Below, in pieces: positions 7,850 to 39,845 of a stretch of DNA of 47,171 nt. This DNA is from a virus. The stretch spans positions 1 to 47,171 of IMG/VR virus record IMGVR_UViG_3300025012_000145. One strand, written 5' to 3'. How positions within the stretch are numbered: position 1 is the stretch's first letter; every line of letters starts with the position of its first letter. The position numbers were made by a program, and so were the translations under genes. Under the pieces are notes generated by a model. It saw only the letters and a list, made by a program, of their open reading frames with translations, was not told the origin of the DNA and ran no database searches.

Positions 7850-7888
7850 ACCATAGAACCTTTTAGATTATCTGTCAAACAAATAATT
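7850..7888 (-). promoter_or_regulatory. TTGACA promoter with dyad operator, copy 1
   Basis: On the minus strand TTGACA (7873-7878) is followed after 17 bp by TATGGT (7850-7855). Overlapping the -35 box on the plus strand is TTATCTGT-CAA-ACAAATAA (7868-7886), 8-bp arms around a 3-bp centre. The 23 bp at 7866-7888 match 25536-25558 at 22 positions. A repressor operator is inferred. Confidence 0.65.
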
Positions 7889-9867
7889 TAAGCCGCTGCT
7901 CTTTTTTTCTCCATGTCTTCCCCGTTCAGGATTCGCATAGCCGCCTGTATCAGGTCGTTCTGCCCTTCTTGCTCTACGTCGCCCACCGGCACGTAGTCGC
8001 AAAGCTCGACAAAGCACACCGTATCGAAGAGGTCGGGGGACTTGATCCCTTCCCCCTTCATCTGGTCCTTTGGCATGATGACGTAGCGGCCCGCCTCGTC
8101 AATCTTGTACGGTATCCGGGAGCCCTGCTCCACGACCTTCTTGCCGGGGGGGAGCCTGCGCCTGCGGGTGAAGATCGCCTCGCGGGTTTTGACACTAGAG
8201 AACGCACGCCGGTTCTTGTACCGCTTCTTATCGGCATCGGTATGAGGGGGGAGCCCCCAGTTGATGCGCTCAACCAGACAGTTCAGCTCTTCGAGGTGAA
8301 GGATGACGGTTCTGCCAGGGCCGTCGCCGTCGACCGCAAAGGTGATGTTGGGGTAGTGCCCTATGTCGGCGTACATCTCGCGGGCGAACTTCAGTTCATC
8401 CAGTTCCAGGTACTCAACCTGCTTTATCGCCTCGGCCAGCCTCTCCGGGCCGTACCCTGAGACCTTCCAAAGGGTGTAGACGGAACTGTCGCGGTGAACG
8501 CCCTCGGCGACGTCGACGGTTGCCACCCAGCCCCACGCCTCTTTATGGACTATGACATCCGTCTGCGACTGCTCCAGCCACGTCTTAGGGATCAGGAACC
8601 CCGAGAGGTTATCCGGGAGTCGCCCCAGCACCTTGATCTGGTATTCCGGGGAGTGGTGCCCGCCGTACTTGACAAGGTGAGCCTCGATCCAAGGACGATC
8701 CACAAGGGGGGATTCTTCGGCGTTCAGGTTAAAGGTCTGGTAGATGGACTTCAGGGTGCCAAAGGCTTCAGCAAACCGCCCTACGCTGCGCGTCGGCTGA
8801 CTTATCATTATGTGCCGGTTGCCGTCCTGAGTGAGCGCCCCTTCGAGGATGTCGTGGATGACATCCTCAACCCCGGATGCTTCGTCTATCAGGACGGTGT
8901 ACTGCTTCGCGTGCTGACCTGCCACACCCTCCGGCTTGTGCTTGCTGGCTGTCTTCGCCATGACATACCAGAGGTCCTTGAAGCTCTTGTTGTAAAACCG
9001 CTTGGTGTCCTTGACGAAATGGCCCTGCAACCACGGGAAGTTATTCTCGACCTGCGCTATGGCAGAGTCGATGTACTTCCATACGCCTATCCGGCACTGA
9101 TCGACGTTGTTGGCAGTGAGAAGCATCTGGGAGAAGATGTCGGGATGGACTTCGCCATGGAGCGCCTTGAGGGCGAGGTAGGGATCGACTACGGTGGCGT
9201 GCCAACAGCAATACCAGCCCATAAGGAACGATTTTCCTGTGTTGGAAAAAACCGTACCGTCTTCGGCCTGAAAACGGTGATTGCCGTCCACCTCAAAGCC
9301 GTAGTAGTCGCCGACGACATCGACCAGCACGGCGCTGACAATGTTGATCTGCATCTCGACGCCGGGGGCGATGGCCCGATAAGCCGCATACTTTTCCCGC
9401 TCCGCAGCCTCCATCCAGCGCCAAGTGCTGACTGGTAGCTGCACCCGCTCCCTTGTCGCCTTGATAATCAGGCACAGGTAGTGGCTGTCGTTGAAGACGT
9501 GGCTCCTGCCGTTGTCATAGGTGAAGCGGTACATCGCTTCCCTGCCGCGCACCACATCAATGACGTTCCGGGGGGTCCAGTCGTCCCCCATGAGAACGTC
9601 GCCTTCGATAACATCCTCGACGGCCTTTGCGGTGCCATCGAACATGCGAACGCCGGTTCCCTTGCCGAAACAGCCATGGCCGGAAGCGATGGCAACCTTG
9701 CACCCTGGCTTGCTCACTGCGTCCATGATAAGGTGCTGCTGCCAGCTCGGCTGCTGTACGGAGTTTTCGCAGACAAAGCGGGTGAAATCGTTGTGGTATC
9801 TGAGGCAGTATTCCCAATAGCGGGGATCGTTGAGGATGCTCTTCTTCTGCTTCTTCGGTTTAGCCAA
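7888..9867 (-). CDS. terL: Terminase large subunit with in-frame mini-intein
   Basis: This is a 659-residue precursor (515 after intein removal), the ATPase-nuclease motor that packages DNA. The Walker A motif is split: SGHG at residues 62-65, the intein at 66-209, then TGKS at 210-213, which rejoins to SGHGTGKS. Walker B is LIDEAS (Asp328/Glu329). The RuvC-like nuclease shows VDVAEG (Asp452), FAVDGDGPG and a C-terminal DLFDTV. The start is TTG 9867 with AAGGAG 7 bases upstream. The upstream methylase frame overlaps it by 154 bases. The small subunit is about 16 kb away, unusual for terminases. Confidence 0.92.
   Translation of the reverse strand: MAKPKKQKKSILNDPRYWEYCLRYHNDFTRFVCENSVQQPSWQQHLIMDAVSKPGCKVAIASGHGCFGKGTGVRMFDGTAKAVEDVIEGDVLMGDDWTPRNVIDVVRGREAMYRFTYDNGRSHVFNDSHYLCLIIKATRERVQLPVSTWRWMEAAEREKYAAYRAIAPGVEMQINIVSAVLVDVVGDYYGFEVDGNHRFQAEDGTVFSNTGKSFLMGWYCCWHATVVDPYLALKALHGEVHPDIFSQMLLTANNVDQCRIGVWKYIDSAIAQVENNFPWLQGHFVKDTKRFYNKSFKDLWYVMAKTASKHKPEGVAGQHAKQYTVLIDEASGVEDVIHDILEGALTQDGNRHIMISQPTRSVGRFAEAFGTLKSIYQTFNLNAEESPLVDRPWIEAHLVKYGGHHSPEYQIKVLGRLPDNLSGFLIPKTWLEQSQTDVIVHKEAWGWVATVDVAEGVHRDSSVYTLWKVSGYGPERLAEAIKQVEYLELDELKFAREMYADIGHYPNITFAVDGDGPGRTVILHLEELNCLVERINWGLPPHTDADKKRYKNRRAFSSVKTREAIFTRRRRLPPGKKVVEQGSRIPYKIDEAGRYVIMPKDQMKGEGIKSPDLFDTVCFVELCDYVPVGDVEQEGQNDLIQAAMRILNGEDMEKKRAAA
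9241..9672 (-). mobile_element. Mini-intein in the terminase P-loop
   Basis: This 144-codon insertion begins with Cys66 (CFGKGTGVRMFDG, block A). It has an NDSH in the block B position (residues 126-129, Asn where Thr is usual) and YYGFEVDGNHRF as block F, and ends VFSN followed by Thr210 as the +1 nucleophile. The penultimate residue is Ser instead of the usual His. There is no homing endonuclease domain; only about 40 residues separate the splicing blocks. Confidence 0.88.
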
Positions 9868-10364
9868 AGGTAACTCCTTAACTGCACAAGTTGACCTTCA
9901 ATACCACAGTTCGCAAGGGTTTGGTAGTTATTGCCCCCATAGGCGACTAGACATGAAGGTGCCCCGGAGTTGGCGGGTGCTCTCTCTCCTGTTACGTGGT
10001 GGAAATGGAGTCTTCCTCTGATAAAAAGCATCCCGGTTGCGCGTTCCCATACCTGTCGGAAAAACATATCGGTCTCAGTCCTGGCAAAGATCAGCGCAAC
10101 CCCATCCCCATGGTCAGCAAGCCTGCCCAACCACACAGCCGCTTCTGCCCCATAAGGAGGATTGCACCATACCCTGCCTTCCCACGGCTTTTTTAACCCG
10201 TTATCGATTATGGTATAGTGGTTTTTCGCAGTGGGCCACGGTCGGTTTATCGGGCTACACGGGTCAAGGTCAAAATCTCCCAGTGCCTGGACGATGGCGG
10301 GCGGGGTCAACCATTCGTCTTTACCCATTTTATGGGAATGGTGCCCCCCTATTCCTTTACTCAT
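9714..10364 (-). CDS. dam: Dam-type DNA N6-adenine methyltransferase
   Basis: This is a 216-codon frame; ATG 10364 overlaps the upstream stop (ATGA). DEWLTPPAIVQALGDFDLDP (16-35) and WCNPPYG (67-73, the NPPY catalytic motif) define the phage Dam family (PF05869). RLHFHH and a C-terminal LVAYG also fit. These enzymes methylate adenine, usually to protect phage DNA. The family normally ends about where GIEGQLVQL is seen. The remaining ~55 residues read into terL in another frame, and a TAA lies right there in the +1 frame, so a lost stop or indel is likely. Confidence 0.85.
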   Translation of the reverse strand: MSKGIGGHHSHKMGKDEWLTPPAIVQALGDFDLDPCSPINRPWPTAKNHYTIIDNGLKKPWEGRVWCNPPYGAEAAVWLGRLADHGDGVALIFARTETDMFFRQVWERATGMLFIRGRLHFHHVTGERAPANSGAPSCLVAYGGNNYQTLANCGIEGQLVQLRSYLWLNRRSRRRASSTIPAIGNTASDTTTISPALSAKTPYSSRAGSSTLSWTQ

Positions 10365-25567: not shown

Positions 25568-26584
25568 CTAAAAACTTTCTGGGGCACCGTCGACGGACCC
25601 AACCGTAGGCGCGAAGCTTTCGCTGCTCTTGAGGTCGTGCTTGATCTGAAGGACCTGCTGCTGCCGCTCGGGGAGGAACTGCTCCATCTGTTTGTCGCGG
25701 CTCGCCAGGGCTTCACGGTACAGCCGATCCAGGTCGGCAGGGGTGACGGGTGTGACGACAGGCCCGTCGCCTTCATCTTCCTCCCGCCTGGAGAGCTGGA
25801 TCTTGATGATCTCCGGCAGAGGTAGGCCCAGGCGCGTGAAGCGATACCCTGCTTCTACCAGCGTCAGTTTGCCGTCCTCCAGATCCTGGATGATCTGCGC
25901 CGTCTCCGCACGGGGGGAGAAGTTGTCACTGAACATCTTCTGGAGCTTGGCAAGGTCCATCAGCACGGCCCGCTTGCTTACCAGCTTGATCCGGGTCCGG
26001 CGTACCGTGTTGGGGGTCTCCCCCTTTACTCCGGTCGGCTCGGAGACCTCTTCGGTATGGTACTCTTCGATCCCGGCAAGCATGTCCCTACTGGCAAGGC
26101 CAAGGTCCGGTATGGCGGTCCCGTCGTCCTGTATCTCGATGAAGTCGCCAAGGTTCACATGGGCCATCTTTGCCAGTTCATTGAGGATGAATTCGGGGTC
26201 GGAATTGTACCTTTTGACGATAGAATCGGAGATGGTTCTGATGCAAGCGCGTATTTTAGCCGTTTTAAGTAGCTTGTGGGCGCTGGTCCCACACGTCCCG
26301 TAACTCAAATGTGCCCCGTAGGCAGCACGGTACGACGCCACCCCGTTGCGGGTCTTGACCCACTCCATGACAAAGTGAGCCTGCTGGGGGTTCAACTCTT
26401 CAAGACACTCCATGAAATCATGGCCCCAGTCATCATCAAGACTTTGTGTGGCTCCCTTTATCGGCTCTTTCGCCTTCGCGGGGGCCTTGCTCCCCCCTTG
26501 GGCCTTCGGCTTGGCGGCGGGTTTCGTCTTGTTGGCAGCGGGTTTCTTCTTTGCCTCTTTTCCCGGTTTTTCGCCCTTAGCCAT
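25568..26584 (-). CDS. terS: Terminase small subunit
   Basis: This is a 338-residue protein. The first ~45 residues are a lysine/alanine-rich basic tail. LNPQQAHFVMEWVKTRNGVASYRAAYG followed by GTSAHKLLKTAKIRACI (about 63-115) is the Terminase_2 helix-turn-helix. FILNELAKMAHVNLGDFIE and IPDLGLASRDMLAGIEEY match the central region of such subunits. It recognises the packaging site and stimulates the large subunit. It is separated from terL by about 16 kb and lies beside a tandem-repeat DNA-binding candidate. Confidence 0.85.
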   Translation of the reverse strand: MAKGEKPGKEAKKKPAANKTKPAAKPKAQGGSKAPAKAKEPIKGATQSLDDDWGHDFMECLEELNPQQAHFVMEWVKTRNGVASYRAAYGAHLSYGTCGTSAHKLLKTAKIRACIRTISDSIVKRYNSDPEFILNELAKMAHVNLGDFIEIQDDGTAIPDLGLASRDMLAGIEEYHTEEVSEPTGVKGETPNTVRRTRIKLVSKRAVLMDLAKLQKMFSDNFSPRAETAQIIQDLEDGKLTLVEAGYRFTRLGLPLPEIIKIQLSRREEDEGDGPVVTPVTPADLDRLYREALASRDKQMEQFLPERQQQVLQIKHDLKSSESFAPTVGSVDGAPESF

Positions 26585-29113: not shown

Positions 29114-29614
29114 TTATTCAGTAACAGTCCATGTTGTGCCGCGCCTTTCCGCCCACCGCCACTTCCAAAACGGGAATTCGATGCGACTCTGATCGAACAT
29201 GCACCGCGCCCGCTGGTAGCTTGGATGCTTAAACCCGTTCTTGCCGACACCTTTAACCTCGATCAGTAGGATCTCCCCTGTCAACATGAACACCCCGATG
29301 TCCGGTGTGTAGGCGTGGCCGTTGTCGAGGTGCAGGGTGATGGGCTCGTATCGTACCTTGGCCCCAGGATACTCCAAGGCCACTCGGTGCATGTACTCCC
29401 TCTCGGTTTTGTTAGGCTGTTTCTTCTTTTTAGCCTTGGCCGGTTTCGCTTCCGGGCTCGAAATCTCGCTTTTAACGGGTGCGCCCCCTGGAAGGCAGGG
29501 AAAGGGGCACGTCACGGCTTGCGCTTGGCAGGAACGGCATGTCACGTTGCCGCTGGCCCTCTTTTCTTTCCCCATCAGGCAGACGTTCACCATCTTCTCC
29601 GGTAACTCGGCCAT
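29114..29614 (-). CDS. DUF1064-like nuclease candidate
   Basis: This is a 166-residue protein. NKTEREYMHR at 69-78, AYTPDIGVF, then LLIEVKG give the D...ExK layout of the DUF1064/VRR-like restriction fold. N-terminal CRSCQAQAVTCPFPC is a Cys cluster. It lies next to the helicase loader, so a recombination/replication role is plausible. Activity is inferred. Confidence 0.65.
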   Translation of the reverse strand: MAELPEKMVNVCLMGKEKRASGNVTCRSCQAQAVTCPFPCLPGGAPVKSEISSPEAKPAKAKKKKQPNKTEREYMHRVALEYPGAKVRYEPITLHLDNGHAYTPDIGVFMLTGEILLIEVKGVGKNGFKHPSYQRARCMFDQSRIEFPFWKWRWAERRGTTWTVTE

Positions 29615-30405
29615 GTGAACTTCAGCAGCGAAGACTTACCCTCGTGGAAACGGTCTATCAGGGTAGGTCCAAGGTAGTCTTCTACCCCAGCCTCATCAAG
29701 ATTGCTTATCAGGATAGTGGGGCGCTCATCCTCGTAACGTCCGTTGAGGGCCTCGAAGAGAAGAATCTCTTCCGCCTTAGTGCCGAACTGCTTCCCGATC
29801 TCGTCTACCACGAGGATGTCCGGCTTGGCGAACAGGTCGATCATCTCTTGCTCGTCAATATCGGGGTTGCCCCAGCTCGTCTTGATCTTCCGTACCAGCT
29901 TCATGGCGGTCGTATGCAGCGCCGTGTAGCCTTGCGCCACCGCCGCCTGACAGATACAGGCCGAAAGCATATTCTTCCCGGTTCCCGGCTCTCCCAGCAT
30001 CAGAAGGCTGTCGCCGCTATCGAGGCGGTTCTTGAAGGTCTGAGCGTACTTTATGCACTTCTCTTTCACTTCCACAGCCTCATCGGTCGGCGGGAAGTAG
30101 TCGTCAAAGGTCTTCCCGATGTACCGCTTGCCGATCAGGATGTCCTTGAACAGTTTGGATGTCAGTGCCTGCTTTCTCCGCAAGGCTTGGGCCTTCTCCC
30201 ACTCGCATGCCTCACAGGGAAGCTCTTCGCTCCGGTGTACCTCGCAGGCGTACTTTCTCACGGTCTCAGGTCCACTCATCGCTTTTATCTCTAAATCCGG
30301 CAGCAGCCCCATGACCTGCTCCGGTTGCGATGCCTTGCGCTGCCGCTCTTGTCCCTGCCGTTTCAGCAGGTTTGCGTTCGCTGCCTCCAGTTGTTCCTTT
30401 TCCAT
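29587..30405 (-). CDS. DnaC-like helicase loader
   Basis: This is a 272-residue AAA+ ATPase. Walker A GEPGTGKN (138-145) carries the Asn typical of DnaC rather than Ser/Thr. Walker B ILVVDEIG is at about 197-204. The N-terminal C-x2-H-x6-C-x2-C (54-67) is an extra zinc site. The protein would bring the host replicative helicase to DNA bound by the preceding O-like initiator. It overlaps that gene by 140 bases. Confidence 0.85.
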   Translation of the reverse strand: MEKEQLEAANANLLKRQGQERQRKASQPEQVMGLLPDLEIKAMSGPETVRKYACEVHRSEELPCEACEWEKAQALRRKQALTSKLFKDILIGKRYIGKTFDDYFPPTDEAVEVKEKCIKYAQTFKNRLDSGDSLLMLGEPGTGKNMLSACICQAAVAQGYTALHTTAMKLVRKIKTSWGNPDIDEQEMIDLFAKPDILVVDEIGKQFGTKAEEILLFEALNGRYEDERPTILISNLDEAGVEDYLGPTLIDRFHEGKSSLLKFTWPSYRRRW

Positions 30406-31384
30406 AGGCGGGTTCCTCCCAGTTAACCCAGTCCTTCCAGTTGTTGAACCACGTCGATCCGTTCTTAGGGGGCCGTGTCGGGTTCTTCTGAAGCATGTCG
30501 AGGTACTTGTCCAAAGCCGTGTGAATGTCCTTCAGGTCATCCCCGGTCTGCACCGTAGCCCTGAAGTGGCGTTCTGCTTCCTTCTTGCCGTCCTTCGACG
30601 GGTAGCGGTTCCAAATCCTCTCGAAGGTCTCCTTGCGGTCCTGCATCATCTTCAGGCAGCCGACGATGTGTTCCCTGATCCCTTCTTCGTCCTTGCGCTT
30701 GGCAGGGGTCGTGGTGCAGGTCTTTTGAATCTGCGCCAGTACCTCTATCACGTCCACGCTGGGGAAGAGCTTGACCCAATCGGAAACGTCGGCCTTGGTG
30801 ATGTGGAACAGGGCCTCGTTCTTGAGGATGATCTCAAGCGCAACGTCGGCGACAGCCGACAAGGGTTTAATCTTCTGCTCTTGTGCTTTCTCCTGCTCCT
30901 GCTCCTGCTCTTGGCTTGGGAGGGGCTTAGAAGGGGCTCCATAGGGGCTTTCACCACGGCACTCCTTCAGATGGAAAAGCTTCTGATACCTACCGTAAAA
31001 GTTGAATAAAAAAGGGTTGTTAGGCATGTTGCGGTATTCTTTGTTGATGCCTTTTATCCTGTTGTCCTTCGGGTCAAGCGGCTCCCCGTCCTGAAGCACT
31101 TGGAACCTCGCCATTTCAGCTATGAAAACCCACTCCGAAGGGGCATCGTAGAAACAGAAACCCACTTCGGAGAGCCTACCAAGGGCCTCCATAGCCCCTT
31201 CGGGGGAGATGCCAGTATCGGCGGAAATGTATGCGGCGGGGAGATAGTAGAGCCCTAACATTGTGGCGTGATGGCAGGTAATCAGGTAGAGAGCTAGAAT
31301 CTGGCAATGCGGTCCTAGATTCTTGAGCTTACGTCCTGTATCCCCTGTCCAAAATGCGGGGGATACTTTAGAATATTCCCTCAT
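30266..31384 (-). CDS. O-like replication initiation protein
   Basis: This is a 372-codon frame. The first half has a winged-helix-like start (YSKVSPAFWTGDTGRKLKNL... LYYLPAAYISADTGISPEGAM). A Gln/Glu-rich low-complexity linker (GAGCAG repeats, QEQEQEQEK) follows at about residues 160-170. The second half (IWNRYPSKDGKKEAERHF... FNNWKDWVNWEEP) is common in phage initiator proteins. Three 11-bp-phased GGGGCT repeats lie inside the gene, as origin iterons do in lambda O. The last ~45 residues overlap the loader gene and are low-complexity, so the natural end may be near WEEP. Confidence 0.75.
   Translation of the reverse strand: MREYSKVSPAFWTGDTGRKLKNLGPHCQILALYLITCHHATMLGLYYLPAAYISADTGISPEGAMEALGRLSEVGFCFYDAPSEWVFIAEMARFQVLQDGEPLDPKDNRIKGINKEYRNMPNNPFLFNFYGRYQKLFHLKECRGESPYGAPSKPLPSQEQEQEQEKAQEQKIKPLSAVADVALEIILKNEALFHITKADVSDWVKLFPSVDVIEVLAQIQKTCTTTPAKRKDEEGIREHIVGCLKMMQDRKETFERIWNRYPSKDGKKEAERHFRATVQTGDDLKDIHTALDKYLDMLQKNPTRPPKNGSTWFNNWKDWVNWEEPAYGKGTTGGSERKPAETAGTRAAAQGIATGAGHGAAAGFRDKSDEWT
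30922..31020. other. Candidate replication origin inside the initiator gene
   Basis: Plus-strand GGGGCT occurs at 30922, 30933 and 30944, exactly 11 bp apart, each preceded by A. They are followed by an A/T-rich stretch (30965-31020, including ATAAAAAA). This matches an iteron plus unwinding-element design. Function is inferred. Confidence 0.5.
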
Positions 31385-38737: not shown

Positions 38738-38967
38738 TACAGGCTCTCCAAAATCTGGAGCGCCGATTTGTACTCGGCCCGCTCCTGCTTGGCTTGGTCA
38801 ATCTGCGGGACGGGGGTCTGCATGTGCAGGTACAGTTTGCGCCCGAACTCCCCGGCCAGCAGCATAACGAGTATGGCCGCAACGAGGGCGATGACCCCAA
38901 CGGGCGTCAAAACCCGTGCCTTGCTTTTCTTGCCCCTGCTGAAGGGTTTCTTGAAGTCTCTCATCAT
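38737..38967 (-). CDS. Single-pass membrane protein
   Basis: This is a 76-residue protein starting MMRDFKKPFSRGKKSKARVL. A basic N-terminus precedes one membrane segment (VLTPVGVIALVAAILVMLLAGEFG, about 19-42); then a soluble helix. Either of two ATGs (38967, 38964) could be the start. No function assigned. Confidence 0.55.
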   Translation of the reverse strand: MMRDFKKPFSRGKKSKARVLTPVGVIALVAAILVMLLAGEFGRKLYLHMQTPVPQIDQAKQERAEYKSALQILESL

Positions 38968-39845
38968 ACCCCCCCCGGCTTGTTCACCATCCCCGTCAAG
39001 AAGGGGCCGACCTGTGCCTGTAGGCTCTGGAGTTCCGCGATGTTTTCGACATCCCGCAGCTTCTCAAGCAGCTTTTTCATTTTCGGACCCCAGTTCTCAT
39101 AGTTGATGCCGCTGGACGCCTTCGGCACGGCATGGGTTGCTGCGGGCTTTGTGTTGACAGGAGCGGGCGATACGGCGCTCTTCTCGGTCTTCGGCAGATG
39201 CTTTGCCGTGGCCTTGGCCTTGCCCGCTTCCTTAGCCGTCTCTACGGCCTTCTGGAGGGTCTTTGTGCCCTGTTCACCTCCTTCCTTGCGGATAACGTCG
39301 GTCGCGGTCCTGGCGGCAACCTCGCCGCGCTGCACCATGCCTTTTACTTCTTCCGGTGCATCCAGCAGCCTGATAAGGTCGGTGATGGCTGTGACGGAAC
39401 AGCCCCGCGCCTTGGCAATGTCTGCCGGGGTCCATTCGAATTTAAGCAGACGCTTCACCGCCGCCGCCTTTTCAAGAGGGGTGAGAGGCAACCCGTCGTT
39501 GCTGGCGAGAATGTCCAGTGCGCGTTCGGCATCATCCTGCTTTGGAGCTGCGATGACCCGTATGCCAAGGACTGGAGCACCCTCGTCCTTTGCCAGTTTG
39601 TGAGCACGCAGACGGCAATGACCGCGATGCACAAATACCCGATCCCCCTCTTGGAATACCGTGATCTCCGGGAAAGCTTCAGTGCCATTCGCCTTGATGG
39701 CATCTGCCATGCGGCGGATATGCGCCTGAACCTCCGGGCTCCCCATGTCTCTGGTATTGTAGCCCTCCTTCTCGTAGATCAGGGCCAGATCGAAAAGCAA
39801 TCGGTCGCCCGCCCCCTTTAACGCCAAATCCTTGAGCTTCGCCAT
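38964..39845 (-). CDS. ParB-like protein
   Basis: This is a 293-residue protein. FVHRGHCRLRAHKLA (71-85) is the ParB/Srx G-H-x-R-x-x-A box, and WTPADIAKARGCSVTAITDL (about 137-156) is the helix-turn-helix. The C-terminus is Ala/Lys-rich and low in complexity, then a helical tail. Phage ParB-like proteins act in DNA partition, nuclease functions or transcription control. GGAGG precedes ATG 39845, and a strong promoter lies just upstream. Confidence 0.75.
   Translation of the reverse strand: MAKLKDLALKGAGDRLLFDLALIYEKEGYNTRDMGSPEVQAHIRRMADAIKANGTEAFPEITVFQEGDRVFVHRGHCRLRAHKLAKDEGAPVLGIRVIAAPKQDDAERALDILASNDGLPLTPLEKAAAVKRLLKFEWTPADIAKARGCSVTAITDLIRLLDAPEEVKGMVQRGEVAARTATDVIRKEGGEQGTKTLQKAVETAKEAGKAKATAKHLPKTEKSAVSPAPVNTKPAATHAVPKASSGINYENWGPKMKKLLEKLRDVENIAELQSLQAQVGPFLTGMVNKPGGV

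Follow-up and report, generated by a model that had tools for sequence, protein, structure and literature searches.

What occupies the 144 codons that split a phage terminase at its Walker A motif, and does the enzyme depend on their removal? The gene that raises this question, terL, lies at 7888..9867 on the minus strand (stop codon included) of the window, the whole 47,171-nucleotide stretch of viral DNA that we analyzed. It encodes a 659-residue precursor of a P1 PacB-type terminase large subunit. The product matches the PHROG family for this protein (phrog_2, E=1.2e-21), as the first-pass annotation had anticipated, and is 35-40% identical to P1 PacB and Vibrio plasmid homologues. Besides this homology, it has the Walker A, Walker B (DEA) and nuclease-domain motifs of a PacB-type host protein. 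Its start codon is TTG, preceded by AAGGAG. The record is a genome fragment and contains this one TerL copy; no second TerL was found in it or in the 96.5-kb record of L001, a phage 94% identical to the window.

Several features of the surrounding sequence are worth recording. The 5' end of terL is overlapped by about 150 bases, in a different frame, by an open reading frame for a Dam-type adenine methyltransferase (9714-10364, minus strand; PF05869, E=8e-12). A gene resembling the terminase small subunit (25568-26584, minus strand; phrog_51, E=9e-17) sits approximately 16 kb from terL, whereas pacA and pacB adjoin in P1. DnaC-like and DnaD-like helicase loaders and a ParB-like partition protein are encoded at 29587-31384 and 38964-39845 (minus strand), which, alongside a P1-type terminase, suggests a phage-plasmid lifestyle. 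We found no near-identical isolate phage for positions 1-24000 of the window.

The insert itself is 432 bp long (9241..9672, minus strand) and corresponds to precursor residues 66-209. Alignment with homologues that lack it places the N-extein at residues 1-65 (9673..9867), ending in SGHG, and the C-extein at residues 210-659 (7891..9240), starting with TGKS; both are on the minus strand. The translated junctions read VAIASGHG/CFGKGTGVRMF at the first boundary and GDYYGFEVDGNHRFQAEDGTVFSN/TGKSFLMG at the second, so that the extent given in the first-pass annotation, from Cys1 to a terminal Asn exactly between SGHG and TGKS, holds to the single base. The insert is missing from at least 14 distinct homologues, which read SGHGTGKS or SGTGTGKT. 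The uninterrupted SGHGTGKS occurs in P1, in Vibrio and Photobacterium plasmids, and in IMG/VR contigs L097-L101 and L103-L128; Xanthomonas phage Rb1, also intein-free, has SGTGTGKT. The closest of these homologues, L097-L101, are 53-60% identical to the window protein (tblastn best-segment identity). Because they run through the motif without a gap, as the earlier reading expected, the 144 residues are an insertion and not a domain of the terminase.

Profile searches bore out the proposal that the insert is an intein. In Pfam, the 144 residues match Hom_end_hint (PF05203, E=5.3e-14), with the match covering residues 1-77 only, and an NCBIfam search returned nothing above its cut-offs. No LAGLIDADG model in Pfam matched the insert, which agrees with the earlier view that the homing endonuclease is absent. 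Searching PDB sequences with the insert identified the PI-SceI and Prp8 inteins (E=1e-9), and a profile of the family described below matched Prp8 inteins end to end (E=2e-21). An AlphaFold2 model of the intein, built from a 22-sequence alignment of fetched loci, has a pLDDT of 97.1. It superimposes on the Prp8 intein 6mx6 with a Z score of 23.8 and an rmsd of 1.5 over 141 of 144 residues, and on PI-SceI, the yeast VMA intein, with a Z score of 22.8; Foldseek and VIA likewise match the model to the Prp8 and VMA inteins, the Prp8 structures being the best. The model of the whole 659-residue precursor is of moderate quality (pLDDT 81, pTM 0.54). Taken together, sequence and predicted structure place the insert in the Hint fold far beyond chance. 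By both measures, this phage family is nearer to the fungal nuclear inteins Prp8 and VMA than to the bacterial inteins with solved structures.

The arrangement of catalytic residues is that of a class 1 intein. The Cys1 nucleophile of block A (precursor Cys66; 9670..9672), block B Asn61-x-x-His64 (NDSH, within FNDSH, precursor Asn126/His129; 9481..9492) and the terminal Asn144 (precursor Asn209; 9241..9243), all on the minus strand, are followed by a threonine at +1 and set in a Hint fold that spans the whole insertion. The penultimate position differs: where most relatives have histidine, the window has Ser143 (precursor Ser208; codon TCC, 9244..9246, minus strand). This does not decide class membership, since a penultimate histidine is usual, not obligatory, and serine exceptions have been reported (PMC5050341). 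The +1 residue, Thr210, had been called the threonine of the P-loop; it does lie within SGHG-TGKS, two residues ahead of the P-loop lysine, but the residue that coordinates Mg is a different Ser/Thr, located after that lysine.

To place this intein among its relatives, we used the same-site alignment as the query against IMG/VR and 84,980 species genomes, and added annotated records. Inteins at the identical codon boundary were present in 104 fetched loci (103 including the window, plus L102), a few of which are repeat fetches of one contig; leaving L102 aside, they form 27 clusters at 90% identity. They come from contigs of Acinetobacter, Alkanindiges, Pseudomonas, Desulfovibrio/Desulfovibrionaceae, Sulfurimonas and Helicobacter, and from unassigned phages. 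Cys1, block B Asn61 and His64, and Asn144 are invariant in 27 of 27 distinct same-site inteins. The +1 residue is threonine in every clustered member and serine in L102, the sole further full-length case. The block B asparagine had been thought uncommon and likely to slow splicing; its invariance here contradicts this, and the yeast VMA intein, too, naturally has asparagine at this place (N76; PMC6805012).

Size divides the family. Five inteins are full length and carry a LAGLIDADG endonuclease (L019, L102, L020, L142 and L144; 321-343 residues), L143 (207 residues) and L004 (241 residues) are reduced intermediates, and the remainder are mini-inteins of 139-151 residues. Among the full-length inteins, identity is 60-71% in the splicing domain, whereas that between their terminases can drop to 28-37%; between Acinetobacter boissieri (L142) and Sulfurimonas (L144), the values are 71% for the intein and 31% for the extein. 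Intein identity so far above that of the terminases is the pattern of horizontal homing. The mini-inteins, conversely, have diverged beyond their own terminases (L020 versus L140: extein 73%, intein 48%; L142 versus L003: extein 75%, intein 38%). Intein-bearing and intein-free alleles are interleaved in the extein tree, with at least three gains or losses on well-supported branches, and intein-free, mini and full-length alleles co-occur inside the window's own terminase clade. From these sequence comparisons, we conclude that the window insert is a mini-intein descended from endonuclease-bearing inteins at the same site, its endonuclease having been lost. It is an ordinary member of a widespread family, notable mainly for its lost penultimate histidine.

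Comparison with L001 reveals how selection has acted on the two parts of the gene. Synonymous divergence is equal in intein and exteins (dS 0.24 and 0.25), and dN/dS is 0.177 in the intein against 0.014 in the exteins. The intein shows a deficit of nonsynonymous against synonymous change (Fisher p=1.7e-6), although its nonsynonymous change still exceeds that of the exteins (p=2e-5). By this measure, the intein is under purifying selection, but loosely, while the exteins are very strongly constrained. Selection on both parts indicates that splicing is almost certainly still needed. The window intein is also among the fastest-evolving members of its family, and slow decay would fit that rate as well.

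We then considered the penultimate position across the family. Histidine gives way to another residue in four lineages only, all of them mini-inteins: the window with L001 (Ser, TCC), the more distant L018 (Ser, AGC), L140 (Arg, CGC) and L138 (Arg, CGA). A sequencing error at Ser208 is ruled out by L001, an independent contig with the same residue and codon. The first-pass annotation had called a penultimate serine uncommon, and so it is: L001 and L018 are the two further contigs that have it. Pattern scans of IMG/VR DNA for serine-penultimate inteins before TGK, requiring Asp five residues before the serine and T as the second base of the two preceding codons, found only these two to be genuine, the other 59 stretches being chance matches. 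As the TCC and AGC codon families are not one synonymous step apart, serine likely arose twice. The mini-intein of L018 (L018:2690-3106) is the most diverged of the family.

In the intein tree, no terminal branches are longer than those leading to the four inteins that lack the penultimate histidine (Mann-Whitney p=5e-5, uncorrected for relatedness, on a tree whose inner branches are weak). One candidate stand-in for the missing residue is His132 of block F (DGNHRF; 9277..9279, minus strand), a position that is histidine in 12 of 28 distinct members: three of the four inteins without a penultimate histidine and nine of the 24 with one (Fisher p=0.28). This distribution is suggestive of compensation, and loss of the penultimate histidine is possibly tolerated through His132; L018 lacks both histidines. 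In some mycobacteriophage inteins, the penultimate histidine is replaced by Gly, Lys or Ser, and in the mycobacteriophage RDF intein, whose native residue is glycine, mutation to histidine slowed splicing (PMC5050341). Judged by sequence, Ser208 could make the window intein either slower or faster.

Given these results, the insert is very probably a class 1 mini-intein that splices to restore the P-loop and that descends from LAGLIDADG-bearing inteins at the same site. The Hint domain would activate the Gly65-Cys66 bond for an N-S acyl shift at Cys66, and transesterification would move the acyl group onto Thr210. Cyclization of Asn209 would then free the intein, and a final acyl shift would join the exteins as SGHG-TGKS, restoring the P-loop and with it the packaging ATPase. 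Because 144 residues part SGHG from TGKS in the precursor, ATP binding should need splicing; the dependence of ATPase activity on splicing, proposed in the first-pass annotation, is what we infer from this geometry. The ancestor would have been a larger intein with a homing endonuclease. Once that was lost, the mini-intein may have persisted because precise excision from an essential gene is difficult, leaving the splicing domain to drift under purifying selection.

Other explanations must be weighed against this one. That the insert is an ordinary terminase domain, or an intron removed from the RNA, deserves almost no credence: it is in frame and encodes 144 residues, but the uninterrupted homologues and the end-to-end intein match both contradict this reading, and no Rfam intron family matches anywhere in the window. 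It is highly improbable that the intein has lost its activity, or cuts without joining the exteins, with the phage relying on another terminase or the gene being non-functional. The absent penultimate histidine, the accelerated evolution and the loss of both histidines in L018 would all suit a failing intein. However, the core nucleophiles are intact, neither the window record nor that of L001 offers a replacement TerL, and exteins held at such a low dN/dS, around an intein itself under purifying selection, argue against an abandoned gene.

A regulatory switch is also very unlikely; in this scenario, the penultimate serine slows splicing and thereby delays the packaging ATPase or ties it to a particular condition. 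In its favor, an insertion in the P-loop makes ATPase activity contingent on splicing, the histidine has been lost in four lineages, and altering the penultimate residue changed how one phage intein splices (PMC5050341). Yet the long terminal branches of those lineages fit relaxed constraint equally well, the block B asparagine is the family norm, most same-site inteins keep the usual histidine, and in the mycobacteriophage intein tested, the non-histidine residue was the faster one, not the slower (PMC5050341). Nothing among the present findings supports a gate or favors a switch over drift. A broader version seems to us scarcely more plausible: that selection, and not drift, lies behind the repeated independent losses among TerL inteins without an endonuclease (four lineages, two residues, four codons), an altered splicing rate serving to time when the packaging motor assembles.

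Inteins in phage terminases are not new. In mycobacteriophages, no protein hosts inteins more often than TerL, whose Walker A has two insertion sites, and the TerL inteins tested there splice readily in a reporter; intein modulation of host proteins in general, TerL included, has also been proposed already (Kelley et al. 2016, PMC5050341). Like the window intein, mycobacteriophage TerL1-a and TerL1-b interrupt Walker A, and serine is among the penultimate variants of inteins in the same phages; TerL1-a, however, falls after the P-loop Lys and before the Thr, which puts it downstream of the window's site, and belongs to a different terminase family (PMC5050341). For the P1-type site we found no paper in the open literature, though such absence is not proof. 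Annotated relatives do exist, some labeled 'Hint domain-containing homing endonuclease' in RefSeq. Those of Acinetobacter phages and prophage-plasmids (vB_AbaM_ABMM1, WEU68022.1; WP_076033728.1) share the boundary SGHG/C..N/TGK, a length of 141-151 residues, the block B asparagine and the lack of an endonuclease. They differ from the window in their penultimate histidine, and their terminases are only about 35% identical to its own.

The five full-length inteins occupy the same site, and their splicing domains are 47-50% identical to that of the window; the terminases of L019, L102 and L020 fall in the window's clade. Unlike the window intein, all five retain both the endonuclease and the penultimate histidine. 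The closest solved structures, fungal Prp8 and yeast VMA, reside in other host proteins and have the penultimate histidine, VMA sharing the block B asparagine. The helicase intein of Jerseyvirus (SETP3/Ent2) is 59% identical to the window intein over the first 68 residues and lies in a P-loop, directly after GSGK, but its host is an SNF2-type helicase and its 348 residues include a LAGLIDADG endonuclease. Related inteins follow GSGK and GAGK in helicase P-loops of Salmonella and Vibrio phages (L015:2501-3544; L013:3001-3441), so one lineage seems to occupy the P-loops of different ATPases. The helicase-like open reading frame of Vibrio phage 13VV501A (L013, 2893-5394) has an apparent second Hint-like insert downstream (CFPAGTLIAMADGTQ...VVHN/C) and thus appears to hold two inteins in one protein. 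To these systems the window adds the P1-type terminase insertion site, common to phage and prophage elements of Pseudomonadota, Desulfovibrionaceae and Campylobacterota. Here, empty, endonuclease-bearing, degrading and mini stages of the homing cycle can be compared in one gene, and the window intein offers a natural case for how splicing proceeds when the penultimate histidine is gone.
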